A DNA stretch of 64,000 nt from Anaerolineales bacterium. GTDB lineage: Bacteria > Chloroflexota > Anaerolineae > Aggregatilineales > UBA2796. The notes beneath the pieces are model-generated. The model had not been told where the DNA came from. It saw only the letters and a list, made by a program, of their open reading frames with translations, and did no database searches. Made by a program: the position numbers and the translations under genes. The stretch covers positions 62,001-126,000 of the forward strand of contig JABTTZ010000003.1 in assembly GCA_015075625.1 (NCBI GenBank), given 5' to 3'. How positions within the stretch are numbered: the stretch's first letter is position 1; every line of letters starts with the position of its first letter. Below are positions 31,627 through 40,311 of the stretch, piece by piece.

Positions 31627-32139
31627 AAACAGAAACTCCTGTCAATCATGACCATAGTTCTAGCGCAAAGGAACGCTAAAAGCAACGATCTCTCATCGAA
31701 CTGAGTGAGGTAGACGTTACGCAGTTGCCCTCATTGCCTACCTACCTCCCGGTGGGAGAAGGGGGAATCCATTTTTTGAGGGGGAAGCCCCCTCAAATGT
31801 CCTCTTTCGATGAATACAGAGTAAACACGTTCAACCGCATACATCCTAGTCCTTAATTAACCTTCGTCACTTTCTCTCTTAGAAACAGTTTCAATGTGTT
31901 CTTCACGTGTTTAATTTACGGATGGATGTTTGGCGCTTCTGGCTTTTTGAGGCAAAGCCAGCGACTTTCCTAAATGTTGGATCGCAAGGTCATAAAAATT
32001 GTATAAATCACGCCCTTCTGGTTGATTAATCGAAAGGCGATTCGTTGACTCACCCCCCAACCTCCCGTAAACTGTTCGTATGTCTTGAACGCTCAACAAG
32101 ACAACCAAACATCAAAATGAGCGGGAGGAAGAAAACACT
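31627..32139. other. Non-coding region before the ESX-like cassette
   Basis: About 510 bases, more AT-rich than its surroundings. It contains TTACGCAGTTGCCCT (31717-31731, repeated at 37959), the CTCCC/GGGAG palindrome, a 10-bp hairpin TTTGAGGGGG/CCCCCTCAAA (31775-31797), a second hairpin CTGGCTTT/AAAGCCAG (31939-31961), and a promoter at 32045. A 65-codon minus-strand frame at 31911-32108 is not supported by a ribosome site or family and is not called. Confidence 0.6.
32045..32073 (+). promoter_or_regulatory. Promoter of the ESX-like cassette
   Basis: TTGACT (32045-32050), a 17-base spacer and TAAACT (32068-32073). The predicted start near 32080 leaves a 60-base leader before the first gene at 32140. 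Confidence 0.62.
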
Positions 32140-32436
32140 ATGGCAGGGAAAATCCAGTGCGATTACGACCAGATGGGCAAGGTGGCGGATACCTTTAGCA
32201 AAGAATCTGGTCAGACGCAGCAGCTTTTCCAGCAATTGTCCAAGATCGCGGGCGATCTCGCTGGTGGTGGCTGGGTCGGTGAAGGAAACGATAAGTTTCA
32301 GACAGAATTCAACGATATTGTGAAGAAGGCGATGGACAAACTTGTCCGCGTCCTCGAAGATGCGGCAAGCGCCAGCAAGCGTATTTCCGACGCCCTCAAG
32401 CAGGCGGAAGACGAATCGGGCGGGTTGTTCGCCTAA
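32140..32436 (+). CDS. WXG100 (ESX-like) small protein 1
   Basis: A 98-residue helical-hairpin protein of the WXG100 family, whose known members are substrates of type VII secretion. The W-x-G turn is in GGGWVGEGND, flanked by two helices with spacing typical of the family. There is no secretory signal and no C-terminal Y-x-x-x-D/E export motif. A GGGAGGAAG Shine-Dalgarno precedes the ATG. It is the first of four tandem small genes; no EccC/EssC ATPase or other secretion gene is in the window. Confidence 0.85.
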   Translation: MAGKIQCDYDQMGKVADTFSKESGQTQQLFQQLSKIAGDLAGGGWVGEGNDKFQTEFNDIVKKAMDKLVRVLEDAASASKRISDALKQAEDESGGLFA

Positions 32437-32500
32437 GGGTCTTAACACCGCTTAGATATATCACTAGAAACGCAATCAGAATCAGTGGAGGAAATCAATC

Positions 32501-32800
32501 ATGTCTGTTGATGTGCAAATCGACTATGAGATGGCAGATGAGGCAGTGAAGTTGTTTGCCAATGGGCAGCAGCAGCTTAACGAAACGCTTCAGGCAATGG
32601 AGCAGTTGGCGAACACGATGGAGCAGGGTGCGCTCCTCGGTGATGGTGGCGATATGTTCGCCCAAGCCCTGCGCAGCCGTCTTGGGCCCCGTCTGCGTAA
32701 ATTGGCAGCGAAACTGGGCGAGATTTCAAAGGATATTAAGGCAGCCAGCGCCGACATCCGTGCCGCAGACACGAAGGGCAAGCAAGGCTTCAAGAGCTAA
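32501..32800 (+). CDS. WXG100-like small protein 2 (no Trp in the turn)
   Basis: A 99-residue helical protein that aligns by layout with the preceding one. The central turn reads GALLGDGGDMF, so Leu replaces the Trp of W-x-G. The C-terminal helix is basic (LRKLAAKLGEISKDIK). A GGAGGAAAT ribosome site precedes the ATG, 64 bases after the first gene. Probably an ESX-like partner or paralog; function unknown. Confidence 0.72.
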   Translation: MSVDVQIDYEMADEAVKLFANGQQQLNETLQAMEQLANTMEQGALLGDGGDMFAQALRSRLGPRLRKLAAKLGEISKDIKAASADIRAADTKGKQGFKS

Positions 32801-32861
32801 GTTCGCCTCAATTAACAGCACAGCGAAAGCGACAATCACAGGGAGCTAAGGAGAAGCAATC

Positions 32862-33185
32862 ATGTCGGTATTTACCTTCGTTGCAAACGAAATCGTTGAA
32901 CAAATCAACACCTATAAGGGTCAGGGCGAGCAATGTGATCGCGTGGTTTCCCAGATCAAGACCGGCGTTCAACCCATTCAGGGTGGCGCGTGGAAGGGTC
33001 AGGGCGCCCGTGCCTACATCGGCGTGATCATCGGGCAGGTCATCCCCCACATCATCGAATTGATCGCCGCCATCACCGGCTTCGGGGGCAACCTCGGCAA
33101 GGCGCTCAATATCATGAACCAGGCGGATAAGATGGTCAGCGGCATTGTTGGGCAAGTCAGCGACATGTTCGATCAGGTGTTCTAG
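32862..33185 (+). CDS. WXG100-like small protein 3
   Basis: A 107-residue helical protein with a W-x-G type turn (GGAWKGQGARAY), followed by a rather hydrophobic second helix (IGVIIGQVIPHIIELIAAI). The hydrophobic helix could be membrane-active or a dimer face. A TAAGGAGAAG site precedes the ATG. Third gene of the cassette, co-directional and similarly spaced. Confidence 0.75.
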   Translation: MSVFTFVANEIVEQINTYKGQGEQCDRVVSQIKTGVQPIQGGAWKGQGARAYIGVIIGQVIPHIIELIAAITGFGGNLGKALNIMNQADKMVSGIVGQVSDMFDQVF

Positions 33186-33255
33186 GCTTTAACCGCCTAA
33201 AACCACAGCGAATTCACACTCAATTTAGAACAATTCCCACAGGAGGACTACGGTC

Positions 33256-33549
33256 ATGGCTGATGTCTCGATGGACTATGGTATCTGCGAGAAAATGGCG
33301 AACATTCACGGTGTTTCGTCCGATGTGTTGAAGGGTGTTTCGAAGGCGCTCAAGATCGCCTCGGACATTTTGAAAGCGACTGCGATGTTTGGGATGGTCG
33401 GGAATCTGGCGCTTGCCTACTACCTCGACAACATTCGTCCGAAGGTCGATCAACTCGCCGAAGACAATGCCGAATTGAAAAAAGACGTTCTAGGTGCGAT
33501 TGCCGCGCTGCGTGACGGGGATAACACCGGTTCACAGCGGTTCGTCTAA
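33256..33549 (+). CDS. ESX-like small protein 4 (diverged)
   Basis: A 97-residue helical protein at the end of the cassette. It lacks the W-x-G turn altogether; the middle is hydrophobic (GMVGNLALAYYLDNI) and the C-terminus is an amphipathic helix. It shares size, strand, spacing and a strong ACAGGAGGAC ribosome site with the other three, which is why I group it with them; homology itself is not proven by reading alone. Confidence 0.65.
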   Translation: MADVSMDYGICEKMANIHGVSSDVLKGVSKALKIASDILKATAMFGMVGNLALAYYLDNIRPKVDQLAEDNAELKKDVLGAIAALRDGDNTGSQRFV

Positions 33550-33624
33550 ACCACTAACCTTTATTATTGCGCGGGGCGTCCCACCGGGTTACGCCCCACG
33601 TCACAACCAAATACCCCATTATGG

Positions 33625-33655
33625 GGGCGGTGCAGAACCGCCCTTTTTGTTTTTT
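33625..33655 (+). terminator. Strong intrinsic terminator after the ESX-like cassette
   Basis: GGGCGGT-GCAGA-ACCGCCC (33625-33643) followed by TTTTTGTTTTTT. A textbook rho-independent terminator, 75 bases after the last stop, closing the four-gene unit. Confidence 0.9.
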
Positions 33656-39345: not shown

Positions 39346-39458
39346 CCTCCCTTTTTCCTTGCCTGTGGGGGTAGGAAGATGGGGTTCTTTTAGAAAGTAC
39401 TGAGGTGCGGTACTACTCTCACTGTCCGCACTTCTTGCCGCTATGCTATGATCGTCCT

Positions 39459-39941
39459 ATGCGTTACCTAACACTCTCTGAAGCCATTTATATCAATGGG
39501 CGGGTGCTGGCGAATCCCCAAATTATGAGCGGCAAACAAGGCGTGCGCGATGTGATCTTGCTAGATGCGGCGGTAATGCGTCCAGCATCTAGCGCGTTTG
39601 GGGCGGACGCCTACCCCACCCTGCGGGAAAAAGTGGCTGCCCTTTTTCATTCCATCGTGCGCAACCATCCCTTTGCCGATGGCAATAAACGGACGGCAAC
39701 CGTCGTCTCTATTTTTATGTTTGCGGTGAATGGTGAGCGCATCGTGTGGAATCAAGTTGAGGCGCTGCCTTATATCCTTGCCGCCGCCCAACATCAACGG
39801 GAGATCGCTGATCTTGCCGCGTGGTTTCCGCTGACACCCTGTCCACCGGCAGGCGAACCCGATGCCGAGGCAGACATGCGGCATATTGACCAGATTTGCC
39901 TTGAACAGGAATGGCTGCTCAATGAACTCCGAGATCGCTGA
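39459..39941 (+). CDS. Doc/Fic-family protein 1
   Basis: A 160-residue protein of the death-on-curing branch of the Fic fold. The active-site loop HPFADGNKRTA fits H-x-F-x-D-[GA]-N-K-R, so it may transfer a phosphate or AMP to a target (Doc of phage P1 phosphorylates EF-Tu). The ATG at 39459 starts the conserved YLTLSEAIYINGRV block. No Phd-like antitoxin gene lies upstream. Its last 20 bases overlap the next gene. Confidence 0.85.
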   Translation: MRYLTLSEAIYINGRVLANPQIMSGKQGVRDVILLDAAVMRPASSAFGADAYPTLREKVAALFHSIVRNHPFADGNKRTATVVSIFMFAVNGERIVWNQVEALPYILAAAQHQREIADLAAWFPLTPCPPAGEPDAEADMRHIDQICLEQEWLLNELRDR

Positions 39942-40311
39942 GACGATTCGCTACCTAAGCGCGGCAGAGGTCGTCGCTATCAATGAGGCGGTGACGGGCG
40001 GGGCGGGCTTGCGTGATTTGCGTTTGTTTGATTCGGCACTTCGTCGTCCGGCGCTTGTCTTGTTTGGGGAGGTTCAATTTCCAACGCTCATCGATAAAGC
40101 CGCCGCCTATATGGAATCCTTCGCCTACCACCACCTCTTTTTTGATGGGAACAAGCGGACGGCAGTACAAGCAGTAGCGCTTTTTCTTCGTCACAACGGG
40201 CGGACGTTTCACTATGAGGCAGGGCGCGATCAGCCTTTTGTGTTAGAGATTGCACAAGGCTGGCACGATAAAGCGGCAATTGCGGCGTGGTTGGCGCAGC
40301 GCGTGGACTGA
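39922..40311 (+). CDS. Doc/Fic-family protein 2
   Basis: A 129-residue second Doc-type protein. The start block IRYLSAAEVVAINEAVTG parallels that of the preceding gene and the active loop HLFFDGNKRTAVQAV is intact. The two differ widely otherwise, so they are old paralogs rather than a fresh duplication. It overlaps the first gene by 20 bases in another frame, which suggests coupled translation. No antitoxin is found downstream either; the next gene is convergent. Confidence 0.85.
   Translation: MNSEIAETIRYLSAAEVVAINEAVTGGAGLRDLRLFDSALRRPALVLFGEVQFPTLIDKAAAYMESFAYHHLFFDGNKRTAVQAVALFLRHNGRTFHYEAGRDQPFVLEIAQGWHDKAAIAAWLAQRVD

Follow-up and report, generated by a model that had tools for sequence, protein, structure and literature searches.

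What are four small genes of the WXG100 type doing in tandem where no type VII secretion system (T7SS) is in sight? The stretch of DNA analysed here, 64 kb long and referred to as the window, corresponds to G000:C3:62001-126000 in a 4.68-Mb assembly of five contigs from a Chloroflexota bacterium. Between window positions 32140 and 33549 it carries four intact ORFs, arranged head to tail on the plus strand, and the rest of the 64-kb window contains no ORF recognised as a T7SS gene. A first-pass annotation had described four small genes of 97-107 aa, spaced by about 60-70 bases and each with a Shine-Dalgarno sequence, which agrees with the ORFs (98, 99, 107 and 97 aa), with the gaps between genes 1/2, 2/3 and 3/4 (64, 61 and 70 nt) and with the GGAGG- or AAGGAG-type motif found 5′ of every gene. 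The features are listed below in window coordinates.

32045..32073, + strand: candidate sigma-70-like promoter, TTGACT-17-TAAACT (consensus scan, 9/12)
32124..32128, + strand: Shine-Dalgarno GGAGG of gene 1 (sequence)
32140..32436, + strand: gene 1 (type A), WXG100, 98 aa, W-V-G turn (PF06013, TIGR03930; always first in the quartet)
32487..32491, + strand: Shine-Dalgarno GGAGG of gene 2 (sequence)
32501..32800, + strand: gene 2 (type B), WXG100, 99 aa, L-L-G turn (PF06013)
32848..32853, + strand: Shine-Dalgarno AAGGAG of gene 3 (sequence)
32862..33185, + strand: gene 3 (type A′), WXG100-like, 107 aa, W-K-G turn (PF06013 under cut-off; hhalign to gene 1)
33241..33246, + strand: Shine-Dalgarno AGGAGG of gene 4 (sequence)
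33256..33549, + strand: gene 4 (type B′), WXG100-like hairpin, 97 aa, Trp-free F-G-M-V-G turn (hhalign to gene 2; tree; AF2; Foldseek)
33623..33655, + strand: intrinsic terminator, 9-bp stem and T-tract (terminator scan)

The terminator had already been noted and was recovered with its nine pairs and T-tract. The promoter string proposed at 32045 is likewise present, but it is no better than shuffled sequence: the scan yields one site in the real sequence against 1.4 in shuffles, hence the promoter is not used as evidence. Chance ORFs were ruled out by conserved orthologues in a conserved order. Another genome of the same genus holds the orthologues in the order 1-2-3-4 between different neighbours (aroE and a CoA ligase), at 50-75% amino acid identity and with codon position 3 taking roughly half of all base changes, indicating that the four ORFs are real genes.

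Family membership and descent of the four proteins

Genes 1-3, with 98, 99 and 107 aa, have the approximately 100 residues of the WXG100 / ESAT-6 superfamily. Searched against the family models, as had been proposed, gene 1 exceeds the cut-offs of both TIGR03930 (E 4e-16) and PF06013 (E 3e-13, 50.2 bits, cut-off 27.3), gene 2 exceeds that of PF06013 (E 1e-7, 32.3 bits) and falls below that of TIGR03930, and gene 3 lies just under the PF06013 cut-off (E 1.2e-5, 25.9 bits). Gene 4 has no match to PF06013 and passes no family cut-off (PF06013, TIGR03930). The turns read as first described, with W-x-G in genes 1 and 3 (W-V-G and W-K-G), Leu in place of Trp in gene 2 (L-L-G) and no such motif in gene 4. 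The turn Trp is invariant in the orthologues of gene 1 (24/24) and gene 3 (26/26). The L-x-G turn of gene 2 keeps Leu in 25 and Gly in all of 26 orthologues, and satisfies only the relaxed definition [WHLF]-x-G (PMC3935865). Gene 4 carries two highly conserved glycines, G46 and G49, instead of the Trp (G-x-x-G). At the C-terminus, H-x3-D/E-x6-H occurs in 102/102 tails of all four families, compared with about 50% of shuffled tails; a pattern HxxxD/ExxhxxxH has been described at the C-terminus of WXG100 proteins (PMC3935865).

The AF2 model of gene 4 is a helical hairpin (helices 8-43 and 48-86, pLDDT 85), whose top Foldseek match is EsxA of S. aureus, with a TM score of 0.71-0.73 but an E-value of 0.13. 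The Foldseek/VIA matches include EsxA/EsxB and, at equal Z, FadA, ESCRT-III and coiled-coil hairpins. Because unrelated hairpins score alike, the fold match alone is no proof of the family of gene 4. The AlphaFold model of gene 3, built on a 9-sequence alignment, was poor (pLDDT 56) and was left out of the fold searches.

The relationship between the four proteins was read from hhalign comparisons of the orthologue alignments of each cassette gene. The best match joins genes 2 and 4 (E 8e-21), followed by 1 and 3 (E 1.3e-15) and by 1 and 2 (E 2e-13); 1~4 and 2~3 reach E about 1e-6, and 3~4 gave no match. A tree of 74 domains places types 2 and 4, together with one gene-4-type fusion, in one clade (100/99) and type 3 in another (100/100), and mixes type 1 with fused proteins; the deep forks lack resolution because the tree has only 109 columns. 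Gene 4 had been grouped with the others by layout alone, a view now ruled out by its homology to gene 2. The claim that all four proteins are ESX/WXG100-related is supported, with gene 4 included through gene 2, and the lack of a shared fold that would have spoken against the grouping was not found. On its sequence, gene 4 is filed as a WXG100-like paralogue of gene 2 only, having neither a W-x-G turn nor a Pfam match. The simplest reading of these relationships is that the cassette consists of two related pairs, which would have arisen by duplication of an A-B pair to A-B-A′-B′. When the genes were compared by mirror-tree partial correlation, no dimer partner stood out: the values for 1-2 (0.39), 1-3 (0.44) and 3-4 (0.43) are about equal, and that for 2-3 is 0.03.

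Linkage to EssC and dispersal of the secretion genes

The order 1-2-3-4 is kept in all of roughly 35 cassettes read from Chloroflexota, relatives as distant as Herpetosiphon aurantiacus included. It is found throughout the cassettes read in the family and in the order, as well as in 8/8 loci read outside the order from a phylum sample of 400 genomes, so that the conserved order on which the first reading had staked its grouping is present. Gene 4 is carried by 32 of the 154 genomes of the order, and EssC (E<=1e-60) occurs in 32/32 of these versus 24/122 of the others (Fisher 4e-18, a value which, the genomes being related, is not an independent-event probability).

At 17 loci the cassette has a Ser/Thr kinase and EssC for neighbours, and a YukD-FHA gene usually comes next (G008, G010, G016, G024, G028, G066, G067, G068 and BE2012, some of these cut by contig ends, and eight from outside the order). 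The usual arrangement is cassette, Ser/Thr kinase on the other strand, EssC and YukD-FHA. In G263 (C1), identified with H. aurantiacus DSM 785 (PMC3368417), positions 3304389-3305788 hold the cassette and 3307356-3316232 EssC. The loci read showed no recognisable EccB/D/E, MycP or EssA/EssB beside EssC and no recognisable Lap or EsaE gene. The cassette has moved out of the kinase/EssC locus in genera g1-g3 of the family to which the window's genome belongs.

The search for EccC/EssC elsewhere in the window's genome returned a single EssC of 2862 aa on the minus strand at C1:629028-637616, far over the cut-offs of TIGR03928 (1710 bits) and TIGR03924. It is adjoined by a Ser/Thr kinase (both at C1:629-639 kb), and a YukD-FHA gene, which accounts for the ubiquitin-like YukD/EsaB component of a T7SS, lies at C2:118205-118855 (62% identity); the orthologue of the latter in G008 matches PF08817 below cut-off (E 7e-4) and has an FHA domain. 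With the cassette at C3:94-95.5 kb, the T7SS core is spread over three contigs, C1, C2 and C3. The unlinked type VII system suspected by the first-pass annotation therefore exists, but "self-contained" or "stands alone" is not supported as a description of the cassette as such, the same four genes lying beside EssC in most relatives. Since EssC is present elsewhere in the genome and the linkage is kept in most relatives, the isolation is a local rearrangement of this lineage and a truly orphan cassette is ruled out.

The motor itself is unusual. An EssC-type motor usually has three ATPase domains. The EssC of the window's genome has seven FtsK/SpoIIIE stretches with seven Walker A motifs; that of G008 has three, that of G007 five, and those of G001, G004, G005, G006, H. 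aurantiacus, G187, G214 and G511 seven. The D1-like copies are 60-65% and the D2-like copies 53-57% identical to D1 and D2 of G008, and the last domain matches D3. Together, the module tree and these pairwise identities show an organisation (D1-D2)n-D3 that arose by tandem duplication, the window's genome having (D1-D2)x3-D3. Four C-terminal NTPase domains are reported for the ATPases of T7SSc-j (PMC11217815). No mention of an EssC with multiplied modules was found in the literature searched, mostly outside subscription journals. Proteins with 3, 5 or 7 ATPase domains offer a natural experiment on the division of work among motor domains.

A spot-check of EssC-positive genomes of the order that lack gene 4 revealed five whose EssC differs from the quartet type and shares about 28-31% identity with it (G098, G103, G109, G076 and G084). 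Three of the five have two or three short WXG100s directly beside EssC; in another the pair lies some 5 kb off, and in the fifth the stretch read contains no such gene. This second EssC type represents another Chloroflexota T7SS subtype in the same order. G063 combines a quartet-type EssC with a single adjacent WXG100. G008 contains two clusters with at least six small WXG100-like genes each (C33:49250-52273 and C13:81532-84841), one of them interleaved with longer helical proteins, as expanded versions of the quartet.

Candidate cargoes and the role of the quartet

Apart from the products of genes 1-4, the window's genome encodes no stand-alone WXG100 protein. Besides genes 1-3, PF06013 matches ten longer proteins (about 355-500 aa), each with its WXG100 domain at the N-terminus. 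The gene-1 model gives the highest score for all ten (89-123 bits versus 38-57 for the next model); one is the sister of the window's gene 1 (tree 100/98). Among their long, variable C-termini are two copies of an M91-type metallopeptidase, neither of which reaches the Pfam cut-off, and one DUF900 alpha/beta hydrolase, the others matching no family. By architecture, and by analogy with LXG toxins, the fused proteins are probable antibacterial toxins.

The preferred reading, with a probability of about three in four, is that the quartet represents the small WXG100-type proteins of the only T7SS in the genome, whose core is dispersed in this lineage, and comprises two paralogous pairs that are co-exported with gene-1-type fused cargoes. 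It draws on homology, pairing by descent, gene order, linkage, EssC co-occurrence, the C-terminal motif and the gene-1-type domains on the fusions; dimer partners, co-export and toxin function are predicted. The products of genes 1 and 2, and those of genes 3 and 4, would most likely pair up as helical-hairpin heterodimers, unless all four join in a single hetero-tetramer. EssC may recognise the quartet through the conserved C-terminal acidic/hydrophobic motif and export it together with the gene-1-type WXG100-fused proteins, the N-terminal domain of the cargo replacing gene 1 and pairing with gene 2, while pair 3+4 would complete the export shaft. Control by phosphorylation is suggested by the kinase and by the FHA domain on YukD. 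Most likely, the quartet would supply obligatory co-exported partners of the fused cargoes. The earlier suggestion that the four are secreted effectors is less likely than a role as export partners: effector candidates are found in ten other genes, whose products join a gene-1-type N-terminus to a large C-terminal domain that varies between them.

A division of labour between the pairs is a tentative alternative, pair 1+2 escorting gene-1-type fused toxins and pair 3+4 another class with a gene-4-type carrier domain. Such a carrier is seen in G027 (C40:17013-18212), where a protein of 399 aa joins a gene-4-type domain to a putative alpha/beta hydrolase/lipase (VAHSQGG); it scores 133 bits with the gene-4 model and is sister to the gene 4 lineage of the window's family. 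However, this is a single such fusion, the window's genome has no gene-3- or gene-4-type fusion, and both pairs are always kept together. It is rather unlikely that the quartet represents the main secreted products, acting outside the cell like ESAT-6/CFP-10 rather than helping toxins. Its being the only stand-alone WXG100 set of the genome, and its retention in every cassette read, even at loci where no cargo gene lies next to it, would fit such a role, but gene-1 domains recur on ten cargo proteins, which indicates docking, and the S. aureus partners are export factors (PMC10653861, PMC10765036). That the cassette is a remnant left by loss of its secretion locus, as the lack of any T7SS gene inside the window might suggest, is highly improbable given the intact EssC with kinase and YukD-FHA elsewhere in the genome and the conservation of the genes between species of the genus, with its share of third-position changes.

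Co-export of several hairpins with a fused cargo has a parallel in S. aureus, where three small WXG100-like proteins, which the toxin EsaD requires, attach to its transport domain and direct its export (PMC10653861; reviewed in PMC10765036). In EsxA-EsxD/EsaD (T7SSb), too, a single EssC works with several WXG100 or WXG100-like hairpins, of which some lack the motif (PMC10653861, PMC10765036). The S. aureus esxB/C/D genes lie beside the toxin with EsaE, whereas in relatives of the window's genome the quartet lies beside kinase and EssC, apart from cargo genes. The mycobacterial EsxA/EsxB (CFP-10/ESAT-6) pairs of T7SSa are likewise adjacent genes for paralogous WXG100 partners, and some pairs of this type in M. 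tuberculosis lie away from any ESX locus (PMC3935865). Here, unlike in mycobacteria, two pairs share one operon, with a degenerate turn in the second member of each, and no EccB/EccD/EccE gene was seen beside EssC in the loci read. The T7SSc-T7SSj of Bacillota and Actinomycetota also combine an EssC-type ATPase, WXG100 protein(s) and a ubiquitin-like protein, with a kinase in c, d and e and an ATPase without FHA domains in c, g and h (PMC11217815). They have one or two core WXG100 proteins (PMC11217815) compared with four here, and differ from the present system, in which a separate protein combines YukD with FHA and the number of FtsK domains in EssC can be 5-7.

Chloroflexota WXG100 proteins are known in outline, from passing mentions (PMC3935865, PMC4010439, PMC10765036), and the main text of PMC11217815 does not mention Chloroflexota. 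No report of the fixed quartet, of the quartet locus or of its dispersal in this lineage was found in the literature searched, mostly outside subscription journals. To our knowledge, T7SS work has been almost wholly on Actinomycetota and Bacillota. The chances appear even that Chloroflexota possess a distinct T7SS class, in which the quartet would act as a four-chain export adaptor and EssC as a serial motor of 3, 5 or 7 ATPase domains, delivering WXG100-fused toxins in predatory and environmental members of the phylum. H. aurantiacus is a cultured predator. With its quartet, of an order invariant over the phylum, and roughly fifteen long ORFs that match WXG100, it is a tractable case for asking why a T7SS needs several hairpin partners and whether a T7SS takes part in bacterial predation.

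Three further loci deserve mention. At C1:1158134-1162418 of the window's genome, two fused genes, nearly identical at the N-terminus but different at the C-terminus, enclose two paralogous lipoprotein-like genes, a layout reminiscent of toxin and immunity genes and likely to represent a twofold toxin/immunity pair. At C4:279766-280272, a DcrB-domain protein (PF08786), possibly an immunity or chaperone partner, is encoded directly 3′ of a WXG100-fused gene. Finally, the window itself contains two overlapping tandem genes of the Fic/Doc family at 39405-39941 and 39862-40311 (PF02661, E 5e-14 and 2e-13).
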